Source: an uncultured Pseudomonadota bacterium
GTDB taxonomy: Bacteria > Pseudomonadota > Alphaproteobacteria > UBA9219
Assembly (NCBI GenBank): GCA_903919315.1
Contig: CAIXHP010000007.1
Location: forward strand, 1-37,854
DNA length: 37,854 nucleotides
Direction: 5' to 3'
Shown: piece by piece, positions 14,288 through 31,797 of the stretch
Layout of the letters: every line of letters starts with the position of its first letter
How positions within the stretch are numbered: position 1 is the stretch's first letter
Translations under genes and position numbers: made by a program
The notes under the pieces: generated by a model
What the model saw: the letters and a program-made list of their open reading frames with translations, nothing else
Database searches by the model: none
What the model was told of the DNA's origin: nothing

Positions 14288-15208
14288 ATGAAAACAACCT
14301 CATTAGAGGGGCCTCGCACAGCGCCGCGCAAGCGCCCGCCCACAACGCCGCCGCGCCATCACGAATTGCACGTCCAACCCATTGTCCGCCACGAGCGCGA
14401 ACAAGATTTTAGAATCACAGGAGGCGAAATACTTTTTCGTCGCCAAGACCTTCAAAACCCCGGCAGGTTCATGAATCCCGAACCGCTGATTCGGCGAATG
14501 GAGATCGATGGAAACACGCTCGCCTTCGACTGCGCCACCATGCACCGCGCCGCCGATTTTAGTTTGGGCATTAACGCTTCGGGCAGCGACGACCACATCA
14601 TCCACGTTAACGTCTCCGCCCGAACGGTTGCTGATCCCCGTTTCCCGAACTATGTGGCCAAACTGGGCAAACGACCGGGCGTAACAGACGTTCTCCAACC
14701 GGAAATAACCGAAACGGCCGCCCTAGACAGCGAAGAGACGCGCCGTTTCAAGCGCGGGCTTCAGGCTCTCAACAAGGCCGGGTTCGTCACATGGCTCGAC
14801 GACTTCCCTCATGGGCAGCACACAGAGGACCGCTTGATGGAGCTTGCTGCGGACGGCCACATCCACGGTGTCAAGATCGACCGGTGCGACGTGAACAAAT
14901 CGCTTGGTCACGGGAACGGTTGCGCCACGCTCATGAATCATGTGGAAACATTCGTCACGCTCGGCATCAGCTCCGTGGTGTTCGAGGGGATCGAGGACAA
15001 AAAGGGAGCGCACCAGATCGACACCGCCGCAGCAAGGTCAGGCCTGACCGAACACATCAACCTGCGCTATCAGGGATGGGCCTTCGCGAAAGCCCTTCCC
15101 CCGTGCGATTTCGCGCGCATGATCGGGGTTTGCCCCACCTGTCCCAGCCGTCCATGCACAACCGGCAGAACCGCGAGCGCCTTCCGTTATCAGGCCGCCG
15201 GAGCCTAG
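14288..15208 (+). CDS. Stand-alone EAL-domain protein, probable cyclic-di-GMP phosphodiesterase
   Basis: The 306-residue product is a divergent EAL domain, the fold that hydrolyses the second messenger cyclic-di-GMP. The residues known to bind metal and substrate all have counterparts: E47 in GGEILFR (EAL becomes EIL), N108 in HVNVSA, E142 in EITETA, D171-D172 in WLDDFPHG, K196 in GVKIDR, E233 in FEGIED and Q262 in YQGWAFAK. The spacing from E47 to N108 equals that in characterised enzymes. There is no GGDEF, sensor or membrane segment. A short C-terminal tail has CPTCPSRPC, perhaps metal-binding. AAGGAA precedes the ATG. It faces the LD-carboxypeptidase gene with 17 bases between stops. Activity is inferred. 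Confidence 0.8.
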   Translation: MKTTSLEGPRTAPRKRPPTTPPRHHELHVQPIVRHEREQDFRITGGEILFRRQDLQNPGRFMNPEPLIRRMEIDGNTLAFDCATMHRAADFSLGINASGSDDHIIHVNVSARTVADPRFPNYVAKLGKRPGVTDVLQPEITETAALDSEETRRFKRGLQALNKAGFVTWLDDFPHGQHTEDRLMELAADGHIHGVKIDRCDVNKSLGHGNGCATLMNHVETFVTLGISSVVFEGIEDKKGAHQIDTAAARSGLTEHINLRYQGWAFAKALPPCDFARMIGVCPTCPSRPCTTGRTASAFRYQAAGA

Positions 15209-16237: not shown

Positions 16238-17152
16238 GTGATTCTATCATCCGACGATCTTCTGAAAATCATCCACGACACCAAGGCCGTGTCCATCTGG
16301 AACCACAAAACCGGGCCGGTGTTCTGGTACGCCGCCGCCGTGCCGGGGCCATTTTATGTCAACACGGAACTGGCGATCGGCAGCGCTCTGGCCGAAAAGC
16401 TGCTGCGCGACATCACCGCCATCATCGCCGCGACCTCCGACCCCGCCGCCCGCGCCGCGCGGTTGAACGAAGCCATCCTGACCGCCTACGACGCAAACCC
16501 GGTCTATCAGCAAATCGTCAAAACCATGGTCGCCGCCGCCAAAGCGTCCTTCCCGGACGGCAGCTACGCGCTCGTGTCCGGCGGCGAACGGCGCGACTGG
16601 CTGTTCTCGATCCCCTTCGCCCGCGAGGCCGGAGTCCCGCACGCCTTCCTGTTCAAAAATCAGGATCTGTGGTGCGCCACCCCCATCGCGCCGCACGCGA
16701 CGACGCTGCATGTCGCCGACCTGATCAACAACGCCGCCAGTTACTTTGATCTGTGGCTTCCTATTCTGGAAAAGGCGCATCTGCGCTGCATAGGCACCGT
16801 CTGCCTCAACAGCCGTGGCAGCAACGGCCTGCAACGCCTCGCCAAGGCCAACGTCAAGGTCGTCGCGCTCAACGGCATCGACCTGAGTTTCTTTGAAAAG
16901 TCCCGCGCCGGAGGCCTGATCGACGCCGACACGCTGGCGGAAATCGCCGCCTATTTCGCGTCGCCGCAGGAATGGGCCAAACGCTATCTGATCGGCAACG
17001 CAAAGTTGTTCGACGCGCCCCACATCGACGCGAAATCCTTTGAGCGGCTGCGTTCCTTCTTCACCAACGACCCATGGTCGCTGAAGAAAGACAACGAAGC
17101 TTTCTTCGCCGCGATGCGCACCGCCATTGAAGAACGCGCCCGCACAGCCTAG
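16238..17152 (+). CDS. Phosphoribosyltransferase-like protein
   Basis: The product is 304 residues from a GTG start, chosen because GGGAGG lies six bases upstream and the longer frame overlaps the divergent gene. The central motif SGGERRDWLFSIPFAREAGV (residues about 114-133) and the later HVADLINNAASYFDLW (158 onward) resemble the substrate-side and PRPP-binding-loop segments of a group of orotate-phosphoribosyltransferase-like proteins. In canonical PRTases the PRPP loop has two acidic residues followed by T-G; here only one Asp and N-N-A remain, so activity is uncertain. It is cytosolic. Its stop and the stop of the opposing ATPase gene share the palindrome CTAG. Confidence 0.55.
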   Translation: MILSSDDLLKIIHDTKAVSIWNHKTGPVFWYAAAVPGPFYVNTELAIGSALAEKLLRDITAIIAATSDPAARAARLNEAILTAYDANPVYQQIVKTMVAAAKASFPDGSYALVSGGERRDWLFSIPFAREAGVPHAFLFKNQDLWCATPIAPHATTLHVADLINNAASYFDLWLPILEKAHLRCIGTVCLNSRGSNGLQRLAKANVKVVALNGIDLSFFEKSRAGGLIDADTLAEIAAYFASPQEWAKRYLIGNAKLFDAPHIDAKSFERLRSFFTNDPWSLKKDNEAFFAAMRTAIEERARTA

Positions 17153-18180
17153 CGGCGCTGGCCGGGAATCCCGCCGGGCATGCCCGTCGTGCCGCCCGGC
17201 GACGCGCCTTGGCCATGGAGCGTGTTCATGCGCGCGATCTGCTTGTCGATGTAGGAATTGACCATGCCCACGCGATTCTCGCGGATCAGCGCCCGCACCG
17301 GATCGCCGTTGTTGCCATCCTCCGTCACCACATAACGCAAATACGGGCCGGAGGTGTTGAGCGTCTGGTGCATCGCCGAGGTCAACCCCTGCGCCAACAT
17401 GTAATTGGCGGCCGACCCCATGCTCTGCTCGGCCAAATGCATCAGGCCCATCAGGCTCTCTTCGATCGAACCGGCGTGAATGGTGGTGATGACCAAATGG
17501 CCCGTGGTGGCGGCGCGCAGAATCTGCTCGGCCGCGCGGGGCGAACGCACTTCACCCACCAGGATATAGCGCGGCGTCCAGCGAAGAGCGCGTTTGAGCG
17601 GCGTGGCCCAATCTTCGTCGCGCCCGACCTGCACCTGATAGCAATAGCCGTAATCGCCCACCGGCCCGTCGAGATTGTATTCGACCGGATCTTCGATGGT
17701 CACGCCCACGCCGCCGAAATTCTGGAGATAGTCGTTGAGCAGCCCGAAACAAGTCGTCGTCTTACCATGGCCGGTCGCGCCCGACACGATGATCAGACCG
17801 TCGCGCTGGCCCATACGGCGCAAATGGGCGCACATATGCGGAGCGAAGGCCAAGTCTTCCAGCTTCGGAACCTTGGAACTGATGCGCCGCAAGCAGATCC
17901 ACTCCTGCCCGTTCGCCAGCCGCTGGTACGAAAGACGAAAACGCATCCCGTCGTACTGATAGGCCGAATCAGGGTTGTCGATCTGGCCGCGCAATTCGTT
18001 GGCGATCAGATCAATCTCGCCGGAATATTCTTCGGGCATCGCCCGCGTCCAGTTGTTGGTGTAGTCGCGCGCCGCGCTGCGGTACCTCGCTATGCCGACC
18101 TGATCAATCCGGACATAAAGATCCATGAACGACATATCGCGAAGCCGTTTGCTCGTCGGCAGTTTCCCGGACTCCGTCAT
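17149..18180 (-). CDS. PilT/DotB-like secretion ATPase (second of a tandem pair)
   Basis: The 343-residue product belongs to the PilT/GspE ATPase superfamily, cytosolic hexamers that drive pilus retraction or secretion. Visible motifs are Walker A GATGHGKT (134-141), Asp box TIEDPVEY (161-168), Walker B YILVGEVR (205-212) and His box GHLVITTIHA (227-236). The tail is Gly/Pro-rich. Like PilT and DotB it lacks the N-terminal N1 domain and the zinc-binding tetracysteine of assembly ATPases. The ATG follows GGGAGA. It is 16 bases downstream of its paralogue at 18197, so the two form an operon at the end of the pilus cluster. Retraction or a regulatory partner role is inferred. Confidence 0.88.
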   Translation of the reverse strand: MTESGKLPTSKRLRDMSFMDLYVRIDQVGIARYRSAARDYTNNWTRAMPEEYSGEIDLIANELRGQIDNPDSAYQYDGMRFRLSYQRLANGQEWICLRRISSKVPKLEDLAFAPHMCAHLRRMGQRDGLIIVSGATGHGKTTTCFGLLNDYLQNFGGVGVTIEDPVEYNLDGPVGDYGYCYQVQVGRDEDWATPLKRALRWTPRYILVGEVRSPRAAEQILRAATTGHLVITTIHAGSIEESLMGLMHLAEQSMGSAANYMLAQGLTSAMHQTLNTSGPYLRYVVTEDGNNGDPVRALIRENRVGMVNSYIDKQIARMNTLHGQGASPGGTTGMPGGIPGQRR

Positions 18181-18196
18181 GCAACTTTCTCCCGAA

Positions 18197-19192
18197 TCAC
18201 GGTTTCTTTATCGGCGGCAAAGGAAACGACGGCGCCTGCGGATTCATGCCGGGGTTGGCAAGCCGCGCCGAAATACGATCGATGTAGGTCGAAATCATCC
18301 CGATCTTACCCTCGCGAATCAGCGAACGAACAGGATCGCCGGGTGCGTTTTCTTCGGTGTAGAGATAGCGGATAAACGGCCCGGACTCCTTCATGCTCTG
18401 ATAGATCAGCGCCGTGAGGCTGGCCGCGAGCATGTTGCTGCACCCCGGCCCCATCGCCTGCTCGGCCAAAAACAGAATGCCCATCAGCGCCTCTTCGGGC
18501 GCGCCCGCGTGAACCGTGGTGATGACCGTGTGGCCCGTCGAGGCGGCGCGCAGCATCTGCTCCGCCGCCTTGGGCGTGCGAATTTCACCGACATAGATAT
18601 AGCGCGGCGCCCAGCGCAAAGCGCGCTTCAGGCAAATCGCCCAGTCATCGTCCGATTCGACCTCGATTTGATAGCATTGGCCGAAATCGCCGTGACGTCC
18701 GCGCATCATGTACTCGACCGGATCTTCGATGGTGATGGCCGTGCCACCGTTGGTGCGCATGAACTCCGCCAACAAACCGACGGCAGTCGTCGTCTTGCCC
18801 GCGCCCGTAGCGCCGGAAACAAGAATCAAGCCTTCGCGCAAGCCGAGGCTCTTCATGTGATTGTAGATATGTGGCTCAAAGCCGAGTTTGCCCAAATCAG
18901 GCAGGATCGCGTTGATGCGCCGACCGCACACCCACACCGACCCATCCGACATCTTTTGCCGCGACAAACGGCAACGCACGCCCTCAAAGTCAATAGAGCC
19001 GTCGGACGCCTCTTCGCGCATGGCGGACGTAACGGCAACGCCAAATCGTTCGACGGCAGCGAGATAGTCGTCCGGCACGAATTGACTCAACCGCCCCTGC
19101 CCTCTTTCCTTGGAACGGAACATAGGCCTGTCGACCTTGTCCAGCCGGACATACAGGTCGATGAAGGGCAGATCATCCAGCGAAAGGCTCAT
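18197..19192 (-). CDS. PilT/DotB-like secretion ATPase (first of a tandem pair)
   Basis: The 331-residue product is a paralogue of the next gene; both share an N-terminal block reading like F-[IM]-DLYVR-[LI]-D. Motifs are Walker A GATGAGKT (127-134), Asp box IEDPVEY, Walker B YIYVGEIR and His box GHTVITTVHA. No tetracysteine motif is present, so it groups with PilT/DotB rather than PilB. The start at 19192 (MSLSLDDLPFIDLYVR) is chosen by alignment with the paralogue; its ribosome binding site is weak, and an ATG 11 codons upstream is possible. It may form a mixed or alternative motor with its partner. It lies 270 bases after the pilin terminator. Confidence 0.87.
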   Translation of the reverse strand: MSLSLDDLPFIDLYVRLDKVDRPMFRSKERGQGRLSQFVPDDYLAAVERFGVAVTSAMREEASDGSIDFEGVRCRLSRQKMSDGSVWVCGRRINAILPDLGKLGFEPHIYNHMKSLGLREGLILVSGATGAGKTTTAVGLLAEFMRTNGGTAITIEDPVEYMMRGRHGDFGQCYQIEVESDDDWAICLKRALRWAPRYIYVGEIRTPKAAEQMLRAASTGHTVITTVHAGAPEEALMGILFLAEQAMGPGCSNMLAASLTALIYQSMKESGPFIRYLYTEENAPGDPVRSLIREGKIGMISTYIDRISARLANPGMNPQAPSFPLPPIKKP

Positions 19193-19462
19193 AGCGGACT
19201 CAGACCATAAAGGAACATCGGGCATCAGCAGCGCGGCAAGGCGACAGTGCCGCATCGCAAGCGAAGCTTATTTCTGCCCCACGGCCCGTTAAGATCGGCT
19301 TAAAAGAACGCCGAGCACCGCCCCACCGGATAGACAAAGCACATTCGTGCTGTCCACAAAAGCACGACCTGAAGCAACCAACAACCCAACACATTGAGTT
19401 GACTGCATTTTTCTACACACGCCAGCAGACTATACCCGCAGAAGGACAGTAAAGCCACGCCC
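19193..19462. other. Gap between the pilin terminator and the ATPase pair
   Basis: No credible gene. It should contain the promoter of the two-ATPase transcript, if terminator readthrough is not used. No clear hexamers were found. Confidence 0.4.
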
Positions 19463-19497
19463 AAAAACGAAGGCCGGTGGTTGTGCACCACCGGCCT
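19463..19497 (-). terminator. Strong terminator after the prepilin gene
   Basis: On the minus strand, a perfect 10-bp stem AGGCCGGTGG / CCACCGGCCT with a 7-base loop is followed by TCGTTTTT. It lies 34 bases after the prepilin stop. Confidence 0.88.
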
Positions 19498-19531
19498 GCG
19501 CCAACTCGTAAAATCATGGGGAGCGTTCGTC

Positions 19532-20191
19532 TTAGCGGATACCCATGACCTGAAAGAAGAAGTAGACATCATCGGCGTTCTTCTGGCATCCGATCGTCCT
19601 AGTCAAATAGTCCCAGCCTTCCGTCGCCACGTTGACGGGCGCATCAGGATCGCCATTGGCGGTAAGGGTCAGTCCGGCATCCGTCACTGTCGTCCCACCA
19701 TTCGTTCCCGTAAGGGCTGCGCCGTTCGCCTTCACATTAACCTGATCGCAGACATCTGCGGGAATTTCCAGAGTGGCCACCAGATTTCCAGCGGTGGTTC
19801 CCAACCCCATTCCATACAAGTAAAGATAATGCCATGTCTTGGTCGGAACCGCGAGCGCATCAGACGGGAACGAAATGCCGCCGCCGGTCGGCGAGAACAA
19901 ATCCGTAACAGCGGTCGTTCCGGTCAAACCCACGTTCGTCATATCTACCGACGCGTTTATGCGTTCGAAGCCCAATTTGAGGTTTTGCCCGATGTCGATC
20001 AAGGCGGCGGCTTTAAGCTTACTGCCTTCGTTTGCGCCGCTGGTGGTGAACGAGCCGCTTCCGGCGGCAATCGCCGCTGCGAGAACGCCGAGAATGGCGA
20101 CAATGAAGAGAATCGGGCCGATAGCGATACCGGCATCCCCCCGCAGCCGCCGACGCGCACTGGCCTTAATTTCTGCCTCGGCATCAATCAT
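19532..20191 (-). CDS. Type IV prepilin-like major pilin
   Basis: The 219-residue product has a charged leader (MIDAEAEIKASARRRLRGDA), then a prepilin-type junction and hydrophobic stalk helix (GIAIGPILFIVAILGVLAAA), and a globular part with two cysteines near each end of its second half. The long basic leader resembles type IVb or R64 PilS-type prepilins; the expected Glu at +5 is not seen, so the processing site is uncertain. Three consecutive ATG codons occur; the last (20191) is best spaced from AAAAGGGG. Own promoter candidate and own terminator suggest high, separate expression, as expected for a structural pilin. Its place amid pilus assembly genes supports the call. No family match is claimed for the C-terminal domain. 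Confidence 0.72.
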   Translation of the reverse strand: MIDAEAEIKASARRRLRGDAGIAIGPILFIVAILGVLAAAIAAGSGSFTTSGANEGSKLKAAALIDIGQNLKLGFERINASVDMTNVGLTGTTAVTDLFSPTGGGISFPSDALAVPTKTWHYLYLYGMGLGTTAGNLVATLEIPADVCDQVNVKANGAALTGTNGGTTVTDAGLTLTANGDPDAPVNVATEGWDYLTRTIGCQKNADDVYFFFQVMGIR

Positions 20192-20312
20192 CATCATCCC
20201 CTTTTGCTCTTGCGCCCCAGCACACCCGACCAGAAGAACGAAAGCGGTTTTCCCCTTCGCGATCCAGAAGACCCCGGAACAACATTCTACGAGCGTATCG
20301 TTAAGCAAACCT

Positions 20313-20329
20313 TACCGCAGGAAGCGGTA
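20313..20329. repeat. Inverted repeat upstream of the prepilin gene
   Basis: TACCGC / GCGGTA with a 5-base spacer, located between the candidate promoter and the prepilin start. No T tract follows, so it may be an operator or an mRNA-stabilising hairpin rather than a terminator. Confidence 0.45.
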
Positions 20330-20343
20330 TAAAGACCTTTTTA

Positions 20344-20371
20344 TGAATAACAGATTGATTTCCTCAGTCAA
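20344..20371 (-). promoter_or_regulatory. Candidate promoter of the prepilin gene
   Basis: On the minus strand TTGACT (five of six match to the -35 consensus) is followed after 16 bases by TATTCA (weak -10). It lies in the 220-base gap upstream of the prepilin gene. Confidence 0.35.
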
Positions 20372-20411
20372 TAGAGTTCTGAACAAACATCGCTCAACAT
20401 CCGCCCAAACG

Positions 20412-20927
20412 CTATTTTTTGGCTTGGGGTGTCGCAAACGATATCTTTTCCGCCTCAAGAACCGCGCGCATGGGCGACGCGTCCTGACACTTCCCGCCGA
20501 CGCAGAGTTCTTTGACAGACCACCGGTACTGGGGCGAGATCGTATCGACGTAACTGAGCACCGTGAGCCACGAGCGGAATCGGCTGCTGTCGTTGGCAGA
20601 GATGGTCAGCAATTGACCGCGCGCCAACGAAAACGAAATATCAGGGAACCGTTTCTGCAACCGCTCCATCAACGGTTGAATTTCAGAGGCATCGGGAAGC
20701 TTGTTCACCACCTTGGGCAAGCTCGGCTCGGTGGCGGCGGCGGCCAAGGCGGCGCGCTTCGCCGTCACCGACAAGCTGACCGTATAAAGCGCGAACGCCA
20801 TCATCAGCAGCGCCGCGCACCAACACGCCGCCACGACGAACATGGTCGCTCGATCGAACAGGCGCAGAGCCTTTGATACAAGGCGCGGCGCCAGAACGCT
20901 TCCGAGAATTTTCGCGTCTATTTTCAT
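20412..20927 (-). CDS. Bitopic membrane protein of the pilus cluster
   Basis: The 171-residue product has a short basic cytosolic start (MKIDAKILGSVLAPRLVSKA), one membrane helix at about residues 28-51 (MFVVAACWCAALLMMAFALY), and a periplasmic domain of about 115 residues with two cysteines (KELCVGGKCQDAS). The topology is that of PilO/GspM-type inner membrane platform proteins, but no sequence family is recognised. The ATG at 20927 lies one base after the stop of the preceding gene, so they are translationally coupled. A periplasmic link between the platform and the pilin or secretin is inferred. Confidence 0.65.
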   Translation of the reverse strand: MKIDAKILGSVLAPRLVSKALRLFDRATMFVVAACWCAALLMMAFALYTVSLSVTAKRAALAAAATEPSLPKVVNKLPDASEIQPLMERLQKRFPDISFSLARGQLLTISANDSSRFRSWLTVLSYVDTISPQYRWSVKELCVGGKCQDASPMRAVLEAEKISFATPQAKK

Positions 20928-20928
20928 G

Positions 20929-21999
20929 TTATTTACGCCCCGCATCCAACGCCTCGCGCACATTGCCGATCACCACGCCGCGCGGATTGCTGTCCAGCAT
21001 CTTGCCGCCCAATTCGTTGATGCGGTCGGATGTCACGTTGGGCGGCAAAACCGCGCGCCACACCACCTTGCCGTCCTTGATTTGGTATATCTCCAGAAAA
21101 CCGTTGAGGTTCAGCAACCCGTCGTTCACATCCGCGAATTTAGCCAACTGTTCCCGCATGGGGCTGGCGCGTAGATTTTGGACGGATTGCATTAGGCGCA
21201 ACGATTTCTCCTCGCTGCGGGCACGGATCTCGTCAAGATTGGAGCCTGACGCTATCATCGACATGGCAGCCAGAAACCACACGACCAACGCCAACGTCGC
21301 AAACCCCATCGCGCTAATGACCGAGAACGCGGCCAGAATGCGCCGTGCGCGGTCTTCAAACAACGATAACGAATACCACGGCACCGGCGTCAACAGCTCA
21401 ATTCGGTCAAGAGTCAGTTCCACCACCGGCACGCCCAATTCACGCGAGGTCCGTTCCGCTTTCGCCCGCACCACCGAAGCCGTGCCGCGATGAATCTGCA
21501 GCCCGTCCACAGTAACGGTCATCATCGTCGCCGCTTCGTCGCTGTAGTAGGTGGAGCAAGAGGGCGGAGGCGAAGCGTCCTTCATGCCCGGCAGCAAAGC
21601 GGCCAACGGGCACCATGTGTTGGGGTGCGAGCCCATTTCGGAGGAACGCACCGCGAGATACCATATTTTGTCGCCCTTCGCCTGCCAAACGACGTGAAGC
21701 CGCTCGCTATCGGCGGCTTCGGCGGCGGCGTTCCAAACGATGTCCTGCTCCTCGCCGATCACGCGCGGGCAACATCCGCCGATCAGCTCCTGCGGAAAAT
21801 AATACTCGCTCAAAACGCCGACCGGCCCCATAAGGACTTGGCCGATAGAGGTGGACATATCCGGCCCCGCTTCCGCAGCTTCCGCCGCATCCGCATGGGC
21901 ATCCGCCTGAGCCTTTTGGCCAATTCTCTTGAAGACCGCCTCGATCTTGCCGAGACCAAGCCCCATGCGCTTGCTGCGGTCGAGAAAATCATTGGGCAT
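20929..21999 (-). CDS. Inner membrane pilus assembly protein (PilO2-like position)
   Basis: The 356-residue product has a large cytosolic N-terminal domain of about 220 residues (LERLH-type core: SERLHVVWQAKGDKIWYLAV), one membrane segment at about residues 221-248 (ILAAFSVISAMGFATLALVV) and a roughly 105-residue periplasmic domain. A cytosolic actin-like or PilM-like part joined to a PilN/PilO-like part would fit this plan and the R64 PilO2 family, but similarity is not clear by eye. The start is two bases after the PilR-like stop. An Ala/Asp/Glu-rich linker occurs near residues 31-46. Confidence 0.6.
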   Translation of the reverse strand: MPNDFLDRSKRMGLGLGKIEAVFKRIGQKAQADAHADAAEAAEAGPDMSTSIGQVLMGPVGVLSEYYFPQELIGGCCPRVIGEEQDIVWNAAAEAADSERLHVVWQAKGDKIWYLAVRSSEMGSHPNTWCPLAALLPGMKDASPPPSCSTYYSDEAATMMTVTVDGLQIHRGTASVVRAKAERTSRELGVPVVELTLDRIELLTPVPWYSLSLFEDRARRILAAFSVISAMGFATLALVVWFLAAMSMIASGSNLDEIRARSEEKSLRLMQSVQNLRASPMREQLAKFADVNDGLLNLNGFLEIYQIKDGKVVWRAVLPPNVTSDRINELGGKMLDSNPRGVVIGNVREALDAGRK

Positions 22000-22001
22000 C
22001 G

Positions 22002-23222
22002 TTATCCCCGCAGTTCGCTTAGGTTGTTCAGGAAACCCTGATTCTGCAGCATAAGAACATAAATCGCCGTCATCACCGTGATGCCGGACAGCAGCATGAT
22101 GGAGAAGATGCCAAGCTTCACCAGCTTGCGCTGATCCGCCTTGGCCATCAGCGTACGCTCTTCCGCGATCGATTCATAGACTTCGGACAATTGGTCCACC
22201 GACTGGATGGTCACGATCTGGTCGCGCTCCGGCTTGCTGAGCGGCCAGCGCGCCAAGGCGCGCGCGGGCTCGACACCCGCCATCACGCGGTCATGGCAAT
22301 CGCGCCAATACATCCGCGCCGCCGGTTCCACCGTGCTTTCGAGAATGATCGTCAGCGCCTCGGCCAACGGCACCTTGCCGCGCAACAGGCGCGCCATCAG
22401 TTTGCAGGTGTCCTTCAAACTGGTGTTGCGGAGATAGGTGGAGAAAATGGGCAGCTTCATCATGATTCGGCTCGTAAAGTGGTCCGGCTTGTGACGGTTC
22501 ATCCAATACGACAAGCCGAGGAAAACCACGGCGACGAGAAGCGCCATGGTCAAAACCAGCATGGATCCATTGATCCATGTCGCCAATTTCAACCCGTGTT
22601 CGAACTTCGCGGCAGCGTCGGGATCGGTGTTCTTCGTGCCCTGCCCCTTCAGATACGGAATCATGCCGTACTGCATGCCCCAAATCGAGCTGATCACACT
22701 GAAAATATCGAACGAAAACCAACTCAGCGCCGTCGTCAGCGCTTTGTACTGCGAGCCTTTCTGCTCGACGTGTTCGATGGCGTGATGGATGACACCCTTC
22801 AAATCGCCCGCGCGCTCGCCCGCCGTGATGATCGCCATCGTCGCCGCGTCCATCAGCCTGAGTTCGCGCAGCGCCTCGGAAAAGGAACCGCCGCCCTTCA
22901 ACACCGTGCGGGTCGGCAAGAACGCCAACCGCCGCCGAGGATCCTGCTCGCCCTCGATGATGTTCAAAAGAGCCGTACCGGCGGAGGCCGTCCCCGATTG
23001 GAAACGCAGGGCGCGCAACAGCTGGATTTGCCAGGCGCGGGAACGCACGTCCATCCACTCGAACAGCGGCGGCTTTTGCTCCTCGATGGTGATGGGATAC
23101 ATGCCCTTGCCGCGCAGCTGGCGACGCACGGCGTGAACGTCGGGGAGATAAAAATCGTCCTCGTGAATGATGACCGCCCCGCCGGGCATAGGCTGCGTAA
23201 AACGGGCGTGATAAAGCTTCAT
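22002..23222 (-). CDS. Type II secretion/pilus inner membrane platform protein (PilR/GspF-like)
   Basis: The 406-residue product matches the GspF/PilC/PilR family, the polytopic platform on which the ATPase acts. It has the duplicated cytosolic four-helix modules: LNIIEGEQDPRRRLAF through MDAATMAIITAGERAGDLKG in the first, and CKLMARLLRGKVPLAEALTI in the second. Three membrane segments are visible (about 170-190, 220-245 and 375-400). The E-x-AG-E-x-AG-type motif ITAGERAGDLKGV is intact. It starts 12 bases after the ATPase stop, with a GGGGG site upstream. In R64-type systems the order is ATPase (PilQ), PilR, pilin (PilS), as here. Confidence 0.88.
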   Translation of the reverse strand: MKLYHARFTQPMPGGAVIIHEDDFYLPDVHAVRRQLRGKGMYPITIEEQKPPLFEWMDVRSRAWQIQLLRALRFQSGTASAGTALLNIIEGEQDPRRRLAFLPTRTVLKGGGSFSEALRELRLMDAATMAIITAGERAGDLKGVIHHAIEHVEQKGSQYKALTTALSWFSFDIFSVISSIWGMQYGMIPYLKGQGTKNTDPDAAAKFEHGLKLATWINGSMLVLTMALLVAVVFLGLSYWMNRHKPDHFTSRIMMKLPIFSTYLRNTSLKDTCKLMARLLRGKVPLAEALTIILESTVEPAARMYWRDCHDRVMAGVEPARALARWPLSKPERDQIVTIQSVDQLSEVYESIAEERTLMAKADQRKLVKLGIFSIMLLSGITVMTAIYVLMLQNQGFLNNLSELRG

Positions 23223-23234
23223 CGTGCGCCCCCG

Positions 23235-24974
23235 TTACCGGCCGCGCCCTTGGCGCGCCGCCGCCTCTTCCACCATCAGGGACGCGCCCATGTTGGCATC
23301 GATGGCGTTGCGACGAATCAGGTCGCGAATGGATTCACGCCGAGGCATATAAACCGTGCCCGGCACGTCCACCACCGACGATGTCACGTTCGACACCATC
23401 ATTTCCGTGATGGCGCGGCGACTGGCTTGATCTTCCGGCGGAAACATGGCTTCCAGCAATAACGTCCGGCCCAAAAAGCCGGTGTGGTTGCACAGGTCGC
23501 AGCCGGCCTTGTTGGCCAGCGCCAATTGTTCATCGGGAGCGATGCCGATGTCGGCGCAACGCTCGCCGCCGTACACGCGCACCGCCGTGTCCCGCGTGTG
23601 GCACGAAGGACAGACGGTTTTGACGAGGCGCTGCGACAGGCTCGCGATCAGCGCATGGCCCAAAATATAAAGGCCGCTGGTGCGGTACGCGGAACTGAGA
23701 AAGCCGTCGATACGATCAAGCGTGTGCAGCGCGTCCACGGCATGGACGGTGGTGATGACCATGTGGCCCGACTCGGTAGCGCGGAGCGCCGCTTCGACCG
23801 TGTCGTTGTCGCGCATTTCGCCGACGATGATCACATCCGGATCATGCCGCATAAGCGCCCGGATGATGCTGGCGATCGAGTTGGCGGAATTGTCGGTCAC
23901 GGATGTCTGATCCACGAGCGGCATGTCGTATTCGACCGGCGCTTCGACGGAATAGACGGCGCGCGCCGAACGGTCGATTTCCTGAATGATGCCGTACAGC
24001 GTCGTCGATTTACCCGAACCGGTCGGGCCGCTGACGACGATCAGGCCGCCGTCCTTCATGTGGCCGTGAATCGATTTACGCAAACGTTCCGCGACGACGG
24101 GCGCGTGCATGAACAGCTCGTCGAAACTGCGCAGGTTTTCGCGGTCGAGAAGACGAAGCGTGAGCTTCTCGCCCGACGGCGCAACCGGCAAGGCGGCAAC
24201 GCGCACGTCGATCATGCGGCCTTGCCATTCAAAGGCCAAACGTCCGTCTTGGGGATGCTGGCGGTCCGCCGCGTCCATCTTGGCATCGGTTTTGATGCGA
24301 GTAACGATCGGGGCCATCACGCGATGAGGAATGAGATGACGATACACAAGATCGCCGTCAACGCGGTACCGGATCCAGCACCGCGCGTCGTCTTCCTGCA
24401 ACGACAAATGAATATCCGACGTGCGGCTTTGCAACGCTTCGGCCAGGATATCGTTCAAAGCCTGCTCGATCATCATGGCATCGTCCGGATCGCGCGACAG
24501 GGTAGCAAAGATGCGCAACAGCCGCTCGCCCGCGACTTCGCTCTGCTCGCGCATCAACCGCGCGAGTTCCGTGCGATCCCACGGCTCGACTTCGATTTTG
24601 AGAATTTCGCGGTTGGCGCGCTGCAACGAATTGGTGATGCGGATCAGATCGGCATCGTCCAAACGGTCGCCGACAGCGATCCGCAAAACGCCCTGACGCA
24701 AATCCAGCAAGCAAACGCCCATGGCGGCCTGATTGGCCGCCGAGACGTACAGACGCAGCGCCTGCATAGTCAAATCTTCATGTTTACCGCCGCGCGCCTT
24801 GGATCGCGAAGAGGACTCGGACAGAAAGCCGTTGCGGTGCAGTATTTCGTCGACGGTCAGATGGCGTCCGGCCGCGCGCCGCATCACCTGCTCCGCCAGA
24901 GCCAGTTCGTAATGCCGCTGGGGAATGCGGGAGGCCTCGTCGGGAGCGGAACCGGAACCGGGAATTTCGCTCAT
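23235..24974 (-). CDS. Type IVb pilus assembly ATPase (PilQ/GspE/PilB type)
   Basis: The 579-residue product is a pilus extension ATPase. An N-terminal divergent domain is followed by the N2 domain (LQSRTSDIHLSLQED), then Walker A GPTGSGKST (316-324), the Asp box EAPVEY (344-349), Walker B IIVGEMRD (382-389) and His box GHMVITTVHA (403-412). A zinc-type tetracysteine is present as CPSC (455-458) and CDLC (492-495), which marks assembly ATPases and is missing in the two PilT-like ATPases of the cluster. Its ATG overlaps the preceding stop by one base (TAATG). It would power pilin polymerisation through the PilR-like protein. Confidence 0.92.
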   Translation of the reverse strand: MSEIPGSGSAPDEASRIPQRHYELALAEQVMRRAAGRHLTVDEILHRNGFLSESSSRSKARGGKHEDLTMQALRLYVSAANQAAMGVCLLDLRQGVLRIAVGDRLDDADLIRITNSLQRANREILKIEVEPWDRTELARLMREQSEVAGERLLRIFATLSRDPDDAMMIEQALNDILAEALQSRTSDIHLSLQEDDARCWIRYRVDGDLVYRHLIPHRVMAPIVTRIKTDAKMDAADRQHPQDGRLAFEWQGRMIDVRVAALPVAPSGEKLTLRLLDRENLRSFDELFMHAPVVAERLRKSIHGHMKDGGLIVVSGPTGSGKSTTLYGIIQEIDRSARAVYSVEAPVEYDMPLVDQTSVTDNSANSIASIIRALMRHDPDVIIVGEMRDNDTVEAALRATESGHMVITTVHAVDALHTLDRIDGFLSSAYRTSGLYILGHALIASLSQRLVKTVCPSCHTRDTAVRVYGGERCADIGIAPDEQLALANKAGCDLCNHTGFLGRTLLLEAMFPPEDQASRRAITEMMVSNVTSSVVDVPGTVYMPRRESIRDLIRRNAIDANMGASLMVEEAAARQGRGR

Positions 24975-26350
24975 TACCGCGCCCCGCCGTTCAATGACGA
25001 AGCCGCACCGGAAGATCTTGATGCCTTGCCGTCACCTTTCCCCGCCTCCGCTTCGGCGGCGGCCGCCGCCTCAGCCTCCAGCCGAGCCGCCTTGCTGGTG
25101 AGTTCCGAAGCCCTCTCCAGCCGGAGAACTTTCCGCGCACCTTTGATGAAGATATCGGCTTCCTTGGGCAAAACGCTGGTGATCTTGGCGATCTTGCCGT
25201 CGCCATAGGGTATATCCTCGCCGACATCCACCACGCTGGTCGTGCCATCCGGCTTCAACAACACCGCGCGGTGCCCCACCGTGCCGATCAGGTGAAAGAC
25301 CTCGCTGGATGCCGCAGGCGGCACGGCCACCACGCTTCGCGGCAGCATATCCGCCGTGATGGGCGGGATTTTATTGCCCACAGCCCGCTCCAGATCCTCC
25401 GCCGCCGTCAAGGCTGGCGGTTCCTTGCCGCTCGACGGAGCGCTGCTCCCCGCAGTCGCCTGAGCGGACGAAGAATCCTTGGGCGATTCGGCGGCGCTCG
25501 CATTGCCGTGAGCCTTGCCGCGCACAGGCACCACCGCGAATCCCAACTTACCGCTGTGGCGAATGATCAGATCGGTTGAAATGATGCCCTTGGCCTTTGG
25601 CTTCCACACCAACGTCACGGGACACGACTCGCCCGGTTTCAACTCCATGTCAACCGCGCACCCCTGATCCAGCCGCTCCAAACCGTTTTCGGCGGCGATC
25701 ACATCAATCGAGAGCAAGGTAATGGAATCAAAACTGTCGTTGATCATCAAAGCCGAGCGCACAGCCCGCCCTCCATCAACCTCGATGTCGCCGAATTCGA
25801 CAGGCTTCGCTTCTTTGGCGCTGAGCGCAAGACCATTGTCTTTTTTGTCGCCGACGGCCTGAACCCCGGTCTTTCCGGTCAACTTGGCGCGCGCGATGCG
25901 TCCGGCGCTTTTATGAGTCATCAAAACTTCGACCGACCACGCGCCCGGCAACGAAGGCGTGACCTCGACGACGACCGAGCAACGGCTCGACGCGGCGATC
26001 TTTCCTTCCTTCGAGCAATCATCACTCACGACATCGCTGTGCACATTGCCGTCCGCGTTGGTCGCCACGCTCACGACTTCGACAGGCTGCGTCGTGGGGT
26101 TGGCAAAGAACAACGTCGTGCGCCGCGCAACGTTCACCACGGATTCGCCGGTATCGATCTCGCTCTTCGGCTCGACGTTGACGGCTTCGTCGCCGCTTCG
26201 CCCGGCCGCGCCGCCGACGCTGCCCGTCGTCACGCCGGGATCGAGAAAGGCCGCATCGCGCGCCGCCCAAACCTCGCCCGACCCAACGCCAAGCCCCAGA
26301 GCCAACATCGCGACAGCGACAGCCCGTTGAACGAAAGCGCGCGCCGTCAC
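24974..26350 (-). CDS. Exported PilP-like protein with two Ig-like domains
   Basis: The 458-residue product begins with a signal peptide (RAVAVAMLALGLGVGSGEVW, then AARDA). Two similar beta-rich modules follow, each with a paired cysteine and the pattern of HYDIN/ASPM-type Ig-like domains: FFANPTTQPVEVVSVATNAD with CSKEGKIAASSRC, and LMINDSFDSITLLSIDV with CAVDMELKPGESCPVTLVW. The C-terminal part (FHLIGTVGHRAVLLKPDGT, then VGEDIPYGDGKIAKI) resembles the beta-domain of PilP/GspC proteins that contacts the secretin. Ends are Ala/Glu- and Ser-rich. The start is GTG, overlapping the secretin stop (GTGA). R64 PilP is much shorter, so this looks like a fused or extended version. Confidence 0.68.
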   Translation of the reverse strand: MTARAFVQRAVAVAMLALGLGVGSGEVWAARDAAFLDPGVTTGSVGGAAGRSGDEAVNVEPKSEIDTGESVVNVARRTTLFFANPTTQPVEVVSVATNADGNVHSDVVSDDCSKEGKIAASSRCSVVVEVTPSLPGAWSVEVLMTHKSAGRIARAKLTGKTGVQAVGDKKDNGLALSAKEAKPVEFGDIEVDGGRAVRSALMINDSFDSITLLSIDVIAAENGLERLDQGCAVDMELKPGESCPVTLVWKPKAKGIISTDLIIRHSGKLGFAVVPVRGKAHGNASAAESPKDSSSAQATAGSSAPSSGKEPPALTAAEDLERAVGNKIPPITADMLPRSVVAVPPAASSEVFHLIGTVGHRAVLLKPDGTTSVVDVGEDIPYGDGKIAKITSVLPKEADIFIKGARKVLRLERASELTSKAARLEAEAAAAAEAEAGKGDGKASRSSGAASSLNGGAR

Positions 26351-28101
26351 GGCGAACCTCCCGCCGGAGCTAGCAAATTGTCGAACGCGTGGCTGAACCC
26401 GCGCTGCATCAGCCGCCGATCCACCGGCGCGCCTTCGGCATCGGGAGGAGCCGAAACCTGAGGAAGCGGCGCGACGGAAGATGCGGGAGCCATCAACTCC
26501 GGTCTGGACGGAGCGGCCAAGGCCACAGGCTGGCCGCTGGCGACCGGCTCTTCCGGGCTTCCGGGCATCTTCAGGATCTGGCTTCCGTCCTTATCGATCA
26601 CGACGGCATCCATCGGGGTCTTTATCGGCGCGTCGGCCCTCCGTTTTTCCTCTTCCTTGGCGCGCGCATCCGAAAACAGCACCACAGACGGCTTCACCAA
26701 AATGACGAGCTCGCTGTTCTGAAACTGGTTGTCGCCGTACATCGGCAGAACCCCGCCGAACGGCAAAGGAATGCCCTGACGGTCGTTCACGTCGCGCGAA
26801 GACACAAGACCCGCCATCACCAGATTGTCGCCAGGCCGTACGCGGATGGTCGAAGAGATCTTGCGTTCCGACGTTTCCGGCAAATCGATGGTCACGCCGG
26901 AGGACGTGGTGGGATTCAGATTGACGAGATCCTGCGTCGTCAGTTCGAGGATCGCGGAAATAACGCCGCTCTCGTAAGTGCCGCCGACATTGACAGTCAA
27001 ACCCGTTTCGATGGTGTCGGTCGAAACCGTGTTGGTGCCGATGCCGCTGCTGGAGGCGTTGGAGCCGGACACATTGCCGCTCGTCAACTGCCCCACTTGT
27101 GAAATATACCGCTGTTTGCCGCCGACCCGGAATTCGGCGTTCATGCCGGACACAAAAGTCATCTGCGGACTGCTGATTGTCTGCACCTGCCCATGTTTCG
27201 ACAGGAATTGAAGAACGGCGGCCGCGTCCACATGGCCGGTGAAATTCGCTCTCAACGTCGAACCCGCCGACGCGAGGCTGGAAAAAGCTGTACCACTGGT
27301 GAGCAGCGCGTCCTGCAGCTTCCCGCCGATTTTGTCGACATTGAATTTTGTCCAGTTGATCCCCGTGCCGTTTTCGCGGTTGAGCTTCACTTCCCAAATA
27401 TAAAGCTGCATAACCACGAGCGGGCGGCCATTGCGCAATTGCTCCAGATATTCGCGCACGCGATCCTGACCATCGACATCCGCCGTGTAAATCAGGTTGC
27501 CGCCCTGTTGATCGACGCGCGCCTTGTCGCCCGCCAGATCACCGATGGCATCAGCCATGGAATTGGTAGCGGACGCGCTCACGCTCGATTTGGTCGGCAC
27601 GGCCGGCAGTTCGACGATGAAAGTCTCCTTCTCCTTCAGCTCAAGCAAGCCATGGCGATAGCCGCAAAACACGCGCGCCGAGCTGCAAATCTTCTCCACC
27701 ACGCGCGGCAGCGAACCGCTGAGATTCGTGACCGTCACCAGACGATTGTCGAATGTGCCCGCACCCCACGATAAGGATACGTCCGTCCCCGCCAGCACCG
27801 CCTGCAGCGCGGTCGTCACCGGGACGGCATTAAGGTTGGTGGTCGGAATGATGATGTTGCCCGGCAACTCTTCATTGCGCGACAAGCGGCGTTCATGCAG
27901 CCGCACGCCCAACTCCAGAGTCACGATGGGCGGTTCCTCAGAGCCGCGCACCGTCTCGTTGGCGTCAGGCATCTCGGCTACCAGCGGCTGGCGACCCGTC
28001 GTCGACTTGGCGCTAGGCACATCGGCCCCGACGCAGCCCGTCATACAAAGGGCCGCGAGAAACGCCGCTGTGCTGATAAAACCGTAACGTCGAACCCCCA
28101 C
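26347..28101 (-). CDS. Type IVb pilus secretin lipoprotein (PilN-like)
   Basis: The 584-residue product forms the outer membrane pore of the pilus system. It has a lipoprotein signal (FISTAAFLAALCMTGC, lipid site at the Cys), an N-terminal STN/TonB-like short domain (VPVTTALQAVLAGTDVSLSW), and a secretin domain (MQLYIWEVKLNRENGTGINW, FLSKHGQVQTISSPQMTFVS, then VRPGDNLVMAGLVSSRD and LVILVKPSVV). This matches the R64 PilN family of secretins. The GTG at 28101 is chosen over a longer frame because AGGAGG lies eight bases upstream and the lipoprotein signal starts there. A Gly/Ser/Thr-rich stretch in the middle (SGSNASSSGIGTNTVS) may be a gate loop. It is the first gene of the operon. Confidence 0.88.
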   Translation of the reverse strand: MGVRRYGFISTAAFLAALCMTGCVGADVPSAKSTTGRQPLVAEMPDANETVRGSEEPPIVTLELGVRLHERRLSRNEELPGNIIIPTTNLNAVPVTTALQAVLAGTDVSLSWGAGTFDNRLVTVTNLSGSLPRVVEKICSSARVFCGYRHGLLELKEKETFIVELPAVPTKSSVSASATNSMADAIGDLAGDKARVDQQGGNLIYTADVDGQDRVREYLEQLRNGRPLVVMQLYIWEVKLNRENGTGINWTKFNVDKIGGKLQDALLTSGTAFSSLASAGSTLRANFTGHVDAAAVLQFLSKHGQVQTISSPQMTFVSGMNAEFRVGGKQRYISQVGQLTSGNVSGSNASSSGIGTNTVSTDTIETGLTVNVGGTYESGVISAILELTTQDLVNLNPTTSSGVTIDLPETSERKISSTIRVRPGDNLVMAGLVSSRDVNDRQGIPLPFGGVLPMYGDNQFQNSELVILVKPSVVLFSDARAKEEEKRRADAPIKTPMDAVVIDKDGSQILKMPGSPEEPVASGQPVALAAPSRPELMAPASSVAPLPQVSAPPDAEGAPVDRRLMQRGFSHAFDNLLAPAGGSP

Positions 28102-28231
28102 CTTGCGCTCCTCCTGAGCTTTGTCGGATCGGGACAGGGCAACGCCCCGCAACGCGCAACGCGCCGGACAAGCCTGATCCCTGCTCTAAGGTAGTTAAGG
28201 TTAAGTTGGGTTGATAATTCGTTAACCGATC

Positions 28232-29871: not shown

Positions 29872-30741
29872 ATGAAGAAAAACATCTGCCCCCTCGCCCT
29901 ATTGATTTTGGCGCTCATCGCCGTGTGGGGCCTGTCCCCGCGCATGGCCAGCTCCACACAAGCCCCCGCCAAGGAATCCGTCTTCGACCGCGTTTTACGC
30001 ACCGGCGTTTTGCGCTGCGCCTACGCCGTCTATCCGCCGGAGACCATCAAAGACCCCAACACCGGCAAACTGTCAGGAACCATCGTTGAGACCACCGAAG
30101 AAGTCGGACGGCAGTTAGGGCTGAAAATCGAATGGACGGCGGAAGTCGGCTTTCTGGATGTTTTCACCGGACTAAAGACCGGAAGATACGATGCCTTTTG
30201 CTCCGGAGCCTATGAAAACCCGCAGCGCGCCAAAGAAGCGCTGTTCACCATCCCGTTCAACTATGGCGCGACCCGCATCTTTGTTCGCGCCGACGACACG
30301 CGCTTTGACGAATCCCCCGATGCCATCAACGATCCCAAAATCACCATCGCCCATATCGACGGCGAGATTACGCAATTCATCATCGACGAAAGCTTCCCCA
30401 AAGCGCGTCATTATTCCCTGCCCGCGCTGACCGACATTTCCCAGACTCTGGAATCCGTCGCCACGCGCAAAGCCGATGTCACATTCCTGCAAGCGGGTCC
30501 GGCGCGCGGCTTTATGGAGCACAACCCCGGCAAGCTGAGAATTCTGCAAAAATTCCCCGCCCGCGTCTTCGCAGCCCCCTTGATCGCCGTGCCGCTCGGC
30601 GAACACGACCTTAAGTACCTGCTCGACGCGACGATCCGCACACTGCAAGAAAACGGGTTCGTGGAGAGCGTGTTGCAGAAGTACGATCCCACGCTGGATT
30701 CCTACCTCCTCGTCGCCAAGCCCTACCGAAAGCCCTTTTGA
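29872..30741 (+). CDS. Periplasmic amino-acid-type solute-binding protein, copy 1
   Basis: The 289-residue product is a family 3 extracellular solute-binding protein (type 2 periplasmic binding fold). A signal peptide (KNICPLALLILALIAVWGLS) leads into VFDRVLRTGVLRCAYAVYPP and DPNTGKLSGTIVETTEEVGR, then the core TGLKTGRYDAFCSGAYENPQ and the end LLDATIRTLQENGFVESVLQ. It would bind a polar amino acid or related solute and deliver it to an ABC permease or a sensor, but no permease or ATPase gene is nearby. AAGGA precedes the ATG. It is a close paralogue of the next gene. The solute cannot be predicted. The conserved Arg and Asp ligands usual in amino-acid-binding members were not checked position by position. 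Confidence 0.85.
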   Translation: MKKNICPLALLILALIAVWGLSPRMASSTQAPAKESVFDRVLRTGVLRCAYAVYPPETIKDPNTGKLSGTIVETTEEVGRQLGLKIEWTAEVGFLDVFTGLKTGRYDAFCSGAYENPQRAKEALFTIPFNYGATRIFVRADDTRFDESPDAINDPKITIAHIDGEITQFIIDESFPKARHYSLPALTDISQTLESVATRKADVTFLQAGPARGFMEHNPGKLRILQKFPARVFAAPLIAVPLGEHDLKYLLDATIRTLQENGFVESVLQKYDPTLDSYLLVAKPYRKPF

Positions 30742-30813
30742 ATCGCTACCGCGAGCAACTTTTCCCATCAATTCAACAAATTGGCAAACATAGTTAATCT
30801 GATGCCTCGCCGG

Positions 30814-30838
30814 AAAATAACGCAAATGATGTTATTTT
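30814..30838. promoter_or_regulatory. Candidate operator 2 of the TrmB-like regulator
   Basis: AAAATAAC, nine bases (GCAAATGAT), GTTATTTT: a perfect 8-bp inverted repeat. It differs from operator 1 at two of 21 positions, even in the spacer. It lies 80 bases before the second binding-protein start, compared with 69 bases for operator 1, and its right end abuts a weak -35 TTGAGA at 30838-30843. Confidence 0.7.
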
Positions 30839-30918
30839 TGAGAACATCCATGGCTCGCTGTAACACTTGTCCACGGGCAAAACACCCGGGAAACGTGCAC
30901 CAAGGGCAGGAGATGCAA

Positions 30919-31797
30919 ATGAACAAATGGGGACAAACCGCCGGGGTTGTCATGATCGCAGCGCTGGCAGCATGGGGCGGAGCCAACTTGTCGCCGGCAA
31001 ACGGCCCGTCCGGCTCCACCGCCAAGGAATCTGTATTCGACCGCGTGACACGCACAGGCACGTTGCGCTGCGCCTACATTCTCTATCGCCCCGAGATAAT
31101 GAAAGACCCCAACACAGGCAAACTATCGGGCTATGTCGTCGACATCACCGAAGAAATCGGCCGCCAACTGAACTTGAAAGTCGAATGGGTCACGGAGCTG
31201 GGCTTTGGGTTCCAAGATGTGGTGGCGGGGCTCAAGAGCGACCGGTTCGACGCAGCCTGCTCCGGCTTTGTCGAAACGCCTTCGCACGCGCGCGGCGCGT
31301 TGTTCTCGATCCCCATCGATTATGCCCCCGAATATATCTATGTCCGCGCCAACGACACGCGGTTCGACCAATCACTAACAGGCGTGAACGCGCCCAGCGT
31401 CAAAATCGCGCAGATCGACGGCGAAGCCACGGCGACCATCGCGCAGGAAGCCTTCCCGCTCGCCGCGCGCTACAGCCTCCCCGAAATGAGCGACATATCG
31501 CTGGCCCTCGAAGCCGTAGCGACCGGAAAGGCCGATGCCGCCCTCTTCCCCATCGCCACCGGCAAAGATTATCTGGCCCGCAATCCGGGAAAGTTGAAAG
31601 TCTTGCGCCAGCATCCCGTCCGGCCATGGATCCAGCCGGTTATGGCGTTCGAGCACGGCGAACACGACCTGAAATACGTCGTCGACGCGACAATCCGCAC
31701 GCTGCAGGAAAACGGCTTTATCGAAAAGACCCTGCGGAAATACGACCCCGAACTGGACTCGTATTTGCTGACCGCCAAGCCCTATCAAATCCGCTAA
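30919..31797 (+). CDS. Periplasmic amino-acid-type solute-binding protein, copy 2
   Basis: The 292-residue product is a tandem paralogue of the preceding gene: ESVFDRVTRTGTLRCAYILY, MKDPNTGKLSGYVVDITEEI, RFDAACSGFVETPSHARGAL, and the nearly identical end VVDATIRTLQENGFIEKTLR, KYDPELDSYLL. A signal peptide is seen (AGVVMIAALAAWGGANLSPA). The ATG at 30919 is chosen because GCAGGAG lies just before it and it matches copy 1 in length; the upstream frame runs through the operator and is not coding. Binding-pocket regions differ between copies (NYGATRIFV versus DYAPEYIYV), so the ligands may differ. The stop is 12 bases from the convergent unknown gene. Confidence 0.85.
   Translation: MNKWGQTAGVVMIAALAAWGGANLSPANGPSGSTAKESVFDRVTRTGTLRCAYILYRPEIMKDPNTGKLSGYVVDITEEIGRQLNLKVEWVTELGFGFQDVVAGLKSDRFDAACSGFVETPSHARGALFSIPIDYAPEYIYVRANDTRFDQSLTGVNAPSVKIAQIDGEATATIAQEAFPLAARYSLPEMSDISLALEAVATGKADAALFPIATGKDYLARNPGKLKVLRQHPVRPWIQPVMAFEHGEHDLKYVVDATIRTLQENGFIEKTLRKYDPELDSYLLTAKPYQIR

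Follow-up and report, generated by a model that had tools for sequence, protein, structure and literature searches.

A type IVb-like pilus lineage with pilins lacking Glu5, apart from the R64 thin pilus, in an alphaproteobacterial order

The contig CAIXHP010000007.1 of an uncultured alphaproteobacterium carries on its minus strand a unit of seven pilus genes (28152-19532), encoding in this order a secretin, a PilP-like protein, an ATPase, a GspF-type platform protein, two bitopic proteins (A and B) and a pilin. The window analysed here is this whole contig of 37,854 bp, numbered C7 in a genome of 2.40 Mb (G000). With a probability of about 0.75, the seven genes are a vertically inherited core set that encodes a type IVb-like pilus machine with a lineage of its own, and two PilT-family ATPase genes located downstream, T1 and T2, are separate from it. 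The first-pass annotation of this DNA had described the stretch 17149-28101 as a chromosomal R64-like pilus cluster with three ATPases. The genes in this stretch are real, but the secretin open reading frame (ORF) extends to 28152, slightly beyond its end. The tRNAs, HU and housekeeping genes on the contig are chromosomal in character, in agreement with that description.

Conservation and placement of the seven-gene unit

The unit was compared between 16 related loci from three families, and its ATPase was followed in 33 genomes of the order. The same seven genes in the same order were found in all 16 loci, and at neither end did these loci share an additional gene common to the order. The pilus ATPase was detected in 29 of the 33 genomes, with 70-87% identity in genomes other than that of the window. 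Downstream of the pilin gene, 35 nt past its stop codon, we identified a predicted intrinsic terminator (19471-19497, minus strand) that consists of a GC-rich hairpin with an 11-bp stem followed by a T run, with the tail TCGTTTTT. No comparable hairpin was observed in 200 surrogate sequences that were generated from the 11.7-kb region with a first-order Markov model, and hairpins with a T run were also present 3' of the pilin gene in five other loci (L056, L058, L059, L063 and L066).

Phylogenetic trees were built for three core proteins, the ATPase, the secretin and the platform protein, using references without the type IVb virulence pili of pathogens. In all three trees a single lineage united the window cluster with those of the order, of G132, of family f138, of three genomes (G051, G253 and G150) with clusters linked to type IV secretion system (T4SS) genes, and of two plasmids from Rhodoferax ferrireducens T118 and Methylibium petroleiphilum PM1 (support 93/89 for ATPase, 92/90 for secretin and 94/98 for GspF). 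R64 was grouped instead with another locus of the same genome on contig C57 (98/98, 100/99 and 99/99, respectively). This locus (L074:4155-17041) encodes DotD, a DotC-like protein, DotB (390 bits), PilN (287 bits), PilP (pilP_fam) and prepilins with Glu5, and is the genuine R64-type system of the window's genome. The designation of the window cluster as R64-like is thus not upheld by the three core trees. Two further systems besides C57 were found in the genome: a Tad locus on C18, and an MSHA-like one (system A) whose genes are scattered over C20, C35 and C59. The latter forms its own clade in each of the three trees, with the core proteins of the window cluster outside. As judged from these sequence comparisons, the window cluster belongs to a new, order-wide type IVb-like pilus lineage apart from R64. 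The earlier proposal of a new subtype is therefore reasonable, in the sense that the cluster encodes a type IVb-like pilus, has a gene set of its own and falls outside the R64 subtype.

A search of open-licence papers gave no previous account of the lineage. A survey of type IVb pili reported them in Gammaproteobacteria, Acidithiobacillia and Nitrospirae (PMC6668835), and the window lineage would extend the range in which type IVb-like machines are known beyond these groups. When 72,556 plasmids were searched with protein A, matches were obtained only in Rhodoferax and Methylibium. A plasmid locus of Bosea, found by its ATPase, encodes neither protein A nor protein B and was not counted in the lineage. 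Two side observations concern the relatives of the cluster. In L112, L113, L114 and L115 (G253, G051, G150 and G064), relatives of the pilus core lie amid genes judged by eye to be DotI/DotH-, VirB11/VirB10- and VirD4-like, possibly representing a pilus-T4SS hybrid. The Rhodoferax ferrireducens plasmid carries two tandem secretin genes (L131:7839-11223) and, further on, a gene for a hypothetical, possibly surface-located, protein of 1049 aa.

The proteins of the unit and T1-T2 were searched with Pfam and NCBIfam profiles, each with its own cut-off, and the fold of protein A was examined by comparing its AlphaFold2 model with VIA-align. The secretin (601 aa; 26347-28152, minus strand, as are all the genes below), whose gene is kept in all 16 order loci, matched PF00263 at 7e-16, and the NCBIfam profiles MshL (113 bits) and PilN (61 bits) at levels below their cut-offs. 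The ATPase (579 aa; 23235-24974) is of the GspE/PilB extension type with CxxC pairs (PF00437, 2e-84), and the platform protein (406 aa; 22002-23222) is of the GspF/PilC/PilR type (PF00482, 1e-16). In the ATPase, the Asp-box EDPxE is replaced by EAPxE or ESPxE throughout the order and in G132; all other members of the lineage retain Asp.

The second gene (24974-26350) encodes a periplasmic protein of 458 aa with two Ig-like stretches, for which an alignment was made. Its matches to the ASH (6.5e-5) and choice_anch_D (choice-of-anchor D; 1.7e-5) profiles stayed below the Pfam/NCBIfam cut-offs, and the ASH match rose above the cut-off in the homologue from f138. The name PilP-like holds with respect to gene position, but hhalign detected no similarity to R64 PilP; position and a faint profile similarity suggest that the C-terminal beta domain is of the PilP/GspC type. 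The PilPs of the clusters on plasmids or linked to T4SS genes are short and devoid of the Ig-like part, which therefore seems to have been added in the order, G132 and f138.

Two bitopic inner-membrane proteins were indeed confirmed on the minus strand between the PilR-type platform protein and the pilin, as first annotated: protein A (356 aa; 20929-21999) and protein B (183 aa; 20412-20963). Neither of them, nor the pilin, matched any Pfam or NCBIfam family above cut-off, and a PHROGs search gave no match for these three proteins or for PilP. The AlphaFold2 model of protein A (mean pLDDT 72) comprises a cytoplasmic actin-like alpha/beta domain, a long membrane helix and a ferredoxin-like periplasmic domain. 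Its best VIA-align match was PilO2Bp (4byz; Z 9.3 over 144 residues, rmsd 4.3), followed by BfpC (3vhj; Z 8.3), FtsA (6.9) and EpsL (6.6), middling Z values that reflect a shared fold; the periplasmic part resembled XcpY/PulL (Z 5.3-5.7). The type IVb proteins PilO2 and BfpC have this fold in common without sequence similarity (PMC3984277), and hhalign likewise detected no similarity between protein A and R64 PilO (probability 0.3%). Because its modelled fold matches those of PilO2Bp and BfpC, protein A is read as a docking protein of the PilO2/BfpC/GspL type. Protein B, for which an order-wide alignment is available, is named GspM-like from its position and topology.

The GspL/GspM-like pair, together with the finding that the best Protein Data Bank match of the ATPase is GspE (207 bits), could point to a type II secretion-like exporter with a pseudopilus in place of a surface pilus. 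We consider such an exporter improbable: the cluster has no set of four minor pseudopilins, its pilin is 198 aa long with a conserved C-terminal Cys, protein A is closest to the pilus proteins PilO2Bp and BfpC, and the relatives of the cluster lie with conjugative T4SS genes or with a large putative surface protein.

Outside the unit, two similar tandem genes of the window (29872-30741 and 30781-31797) encode proteins resembling periplasmic solute-binding proteins.

Pilins without Glu5 and a candidate peptidase

The prepilin gene (19532-20191) starts at an ATG at 20191 preceded by AAGGGG, within an open frame that begins upstream at 20308 (20308-19532). The predicted product consists of a 21-aa leader, MIDAEAEIKASARRRLRGDAG, ending in RLRGDAG, and a mature pilin of 198 aa that begins with IAIGPILF. 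The mature N-terminus, IAIGPILFIVAILGVLAAAIAAGSGSF, has Ile at +1, Pro at +5 and no charge in its helix; two invariant Cys and a conserved C-terminus complete the protein. The pilin thus has type IVb-like traits, namely a long leader, a residue other than Phe at +1, a mature length of about 190-200 aa and a Cys pair.

Alignment and a residue tally across the lineage were then made with search patterns in which +5 was left free or E was allowed. Among 44 pilins (19 main and 6 secondary ones from the order, 2 from G132, 6 from f138, 5 from the T4SS-linked clusters and 6 from the two plasmids), none carried Glu5; position +5 was occupied by P, L, M, Y, A, V or T. Glu5 is present in the MSHA-like and C57 prepilins of the same genome, and also in PilS and PilV of R64. 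In bacterial pilins Glu5 is almost invariable, and in archaea it is often absent; Glu5 mutants fail to form homopolymeric pili, but can be co-assembled with wild-type subunits (PMC4471445). Given this behaviour of the mutants, the lineage either assembles its filaments without Glu5 or obtains Glu5 from a partner pilin.

For the first case, we tentatively propose, at somewhat short of even odds, that the lineage builds filaments mainly from Glu5-less pilins with a wholly neutral N-terminal helix, dispensing with the Glu5 contact regarded as a requirement for homopolymers, and that it deserves a subtype of its own. For the second case, the pilin of the cluster would be a minor or tip pilin, and the bulk of the filament would be formed by a Glu5 pilin of another system in the same cell (system A, C57 or Tad). 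The co-assembly of Glu5-less mutants fits the latter model, as do the other Glu5 prepilins in the genome and the finding that all genomes checked have at least one other filament system. No Glu5 prepilin, however, was observed in linkage with a cluster of this lineage, not even with the self-contained ones on plasmids, which have two to four pilins, and the window pilin has the size of a major pilin and a conserved C-terminus. A minor-pilin role therefore appears rather unlikely. A lineage maintained throughout an order and on some plasmids, with no Glu5 in any of the pilins examined, would provide a natural counter-example, making the role of this residue directly testable.

As noted in the first-pass annotation, prepilin peptidase, lytic transglycosylase and PilV are all absent within the cluster. 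The search of the genome for a matching peptidase, which it had suggested, yielded a candidate elsewhere. Three A24 candidates were detected in the genome: TadV (C18), a PilD-type enzyme (C17) and a short one on C15 adjoining secF. The orthologues of the short C15-type peptidase form a clade (99/99). In G002, G008, G009 and G013 its gene immediately adjoins those of further pilins of the IAIG.ILF type without Glu5, and no other A24 match was obtained in G009, whose completeness is rated 100%. Because it forms its own clade, stands beside Glu5-less pilins and is the only A24 match in G009, the C15 peptidase is the strongest candidate for maturation of the window pilin, and is probably a dedicated enzyme. 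The PilD-type peptidase of C17 was considered as a universal partner and rejected, since family f3 has no peptidase frame of that length yet keeps the pilus; it may still contribute where present. In f138, a different short A24-like protein is encoded just upstream of the pilus cluster.

The T1-T2 ATPase pair

T1 (352 aa; 18197-19255, minus strand) and its tandem partner T2 (343 aa; 17149-18180, minus strand) matched PF00437 at 1e-28 and 1.5e-30, respectively. The first reading as two PilT/DotB-like ATPases is correct as to the presence of a PilT-family pair, but both are closer to PilT than to DotB: TIGR01420 (pilT_fam) gave 115 bits for T1 and 123 bits for T2, against 56 bits for DotB and 82-83 bits for TraJ. 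All these scores are below the cut-off of every profile, that of pilT_fam being 319 bits. Walker A, the Asp box and a PilT-type motif (PVRSLIREGK in T1, PVRALIRENR in T2) are retained, the motif P-V-R-x-L-I-R-E being missing from the compared DotB/TraJ and PilU sequences. By motif, T1 and T2 are predicted retraction-type ATPases. In the best tree they formed a long-stemmed clade of their own (100/100), apart from both PilT/PilU and DotB/TraJ, and the approximately unbiased (AU) test rejected neither joining (p 0.24 with PilT/PilU and p 0.33 with DotB/TraJ).

The adjacency and common orientation of T1-T2 and the pilus genes in the window, the intact motifs, and the similar spread of T2 (32/33 order genomes, usually in tandem with T1) and PilQ (29/33) would fit a single nine-gene system, an R64-like thin pilus with its own pair of retraction motors. 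Against it, this adjacency was seen only in the window's genome. In the other order genomes with the pilus ATPase (n=28), T1-T2 was located on a different contig, except for one genome without T, and on related contigs the pair adjoins pyrC, hisS or other housekeeping genes. Two near-complete genomes, G010 (99%) and G020 (98%), have T1-T2 in the absence of both the pilus ATPase and the platform protein. The terminator intervenes between the pilin gene and T1, and placement with R64 is contradicted by the trees. We consider the nine-gene system very improbable. Inclusion of T1-T2 in the pilus operon was rejected, and T1-T2 probably constitute a separate unit, because the terminator stands between them and the pair is unlinked to the pilus in other order genomes.

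In two other alphaproteobacterial genomes, members of the T family were found inside R64-type pil/Dot clusters with Dot/IncI genes (L127:1001-9994 of G133 and L158:5264-19472 of G249). Among the five genomes outside the order with a strong T match, four (G249, G121, G202 and G133) also carry an R64-type PilN-PilO-PilQ-PilR cluster, and the fifth, G132, has no such cluster among its listed ATPases. On the sequence evidence, the link of the T family with R64-type pili thus appears no weaker than its link with the window pilus. This link is not exclusive, because G002 and G009 of the order have T1-T2 and no R64-type ATPase pair among their listed ATPases. The proposal of a dedicated retraction motor pair is not supported by these observations, and the case of T1-T2 warns against assigning motors to a pilus merely from adjacency. 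About 2 kb beyond T2, the window encodes a protein judged by eye from its translation to be EAL-domain-like (14288-15208).

Proposed mechanism and relation to known systems

On the model of a type IVb-like machine of its own lineage, the short A24 peptidase, whose gene adjoins secF on C15, would cleave the prepilin after Gly. The GspE-type ATPase, docked via protein A and protein B, would then power the GspF platform, which would polymerise pilins whose N-terminal helix is entirely uncharged, and the filament would exit through the secretin, to which PilP with its Ig-like domains would span the periplasm. T1-T2 may act in trans on the window pilus for its retraction. In f138, in Rhodoferax and, together with an EAL protein, in one genus of the order, the cluster is flanked by genes for response regulators or kinases, some of them being recognised by eye from translations. 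Because response-regulator, kinase or EAL genes stand beside the cluster in several relatives, its likely role is regulated surface attachment, the weakest step of the model.

Several points weigh against this model. The phylogeny of secretin and ATPase separated the cluster from R64, but for the ATPase the result was borderline: a clade of the window lineage with R64-type ATPases was not firmly rejected by the AU test (p 0.052), so that a broad type IVb grouping may still hold. The branches from the window lineage to R64 are long. PilP and the GspM-like protein were assigned from their positions and weak similarity. The model of the pilin is of low quality (pLDDT 58), its best fold match, TcpA (Z 4.2), being too weak to use alone, and Glu5 could be supplied by minor pilins or by the major pilin of another system. 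The mechanism as a whole is a prediction from gene content, conservation, lineage and the missing Glu5.

Among known systems, the type IVb thin pilus of R64 (IncI1; PilI-PilV) shares with the window cluster a secretin, a PilP-like protein, an ATPase, a platform protein, a bitopic protein of the PilO2 fold and a pilin in one locus, and in some alphaproteobacteria, clusters related to that of the window are even embedded in Dot/IncI-like T4SS loci. The R64-type order first proposed for the cluster is correct as to the presence of secretin, ATPase, platform and pilin genes, but the arrangement itself differs: the PilO-like gene has moved after PilR, giving N-P-Q-R-A-B-S (secretin-PilP-ATPase-GspF-A-B-pilin) in place of N-O-P-Q-R-S. 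The window cluster differs further in its extra GspM-like protein, a PilP with Ig-like domains and pilins lacking Glu5, and in the absence from its locus of PilT (transglycosylase), PilU (peptidase), PilV and PilL/M. Protein A, whose actin-like fold is also that of BfpC and PilO2Bp, relates the cluster to the Bfp and PilO2Bp-type machines, but the ATPase of the cluster is closer to GspE/PilB than to BfpD (207 versus 90 bits) and its pilin motif differs. The similarity of secretin and ATPase and the GspL/GspM-like pair recall type II secretion and MSHA systems, whereas the genome harbours a separate MSHA-like system (C20, C35 and C59) that forms its own clade and has Glu5 prepilins. T1 and T2, for their part, have in common with PilT/PilU the Walker A, the Asp box, an AIRNLIRE-like motif and the organisation as a tandem pair.

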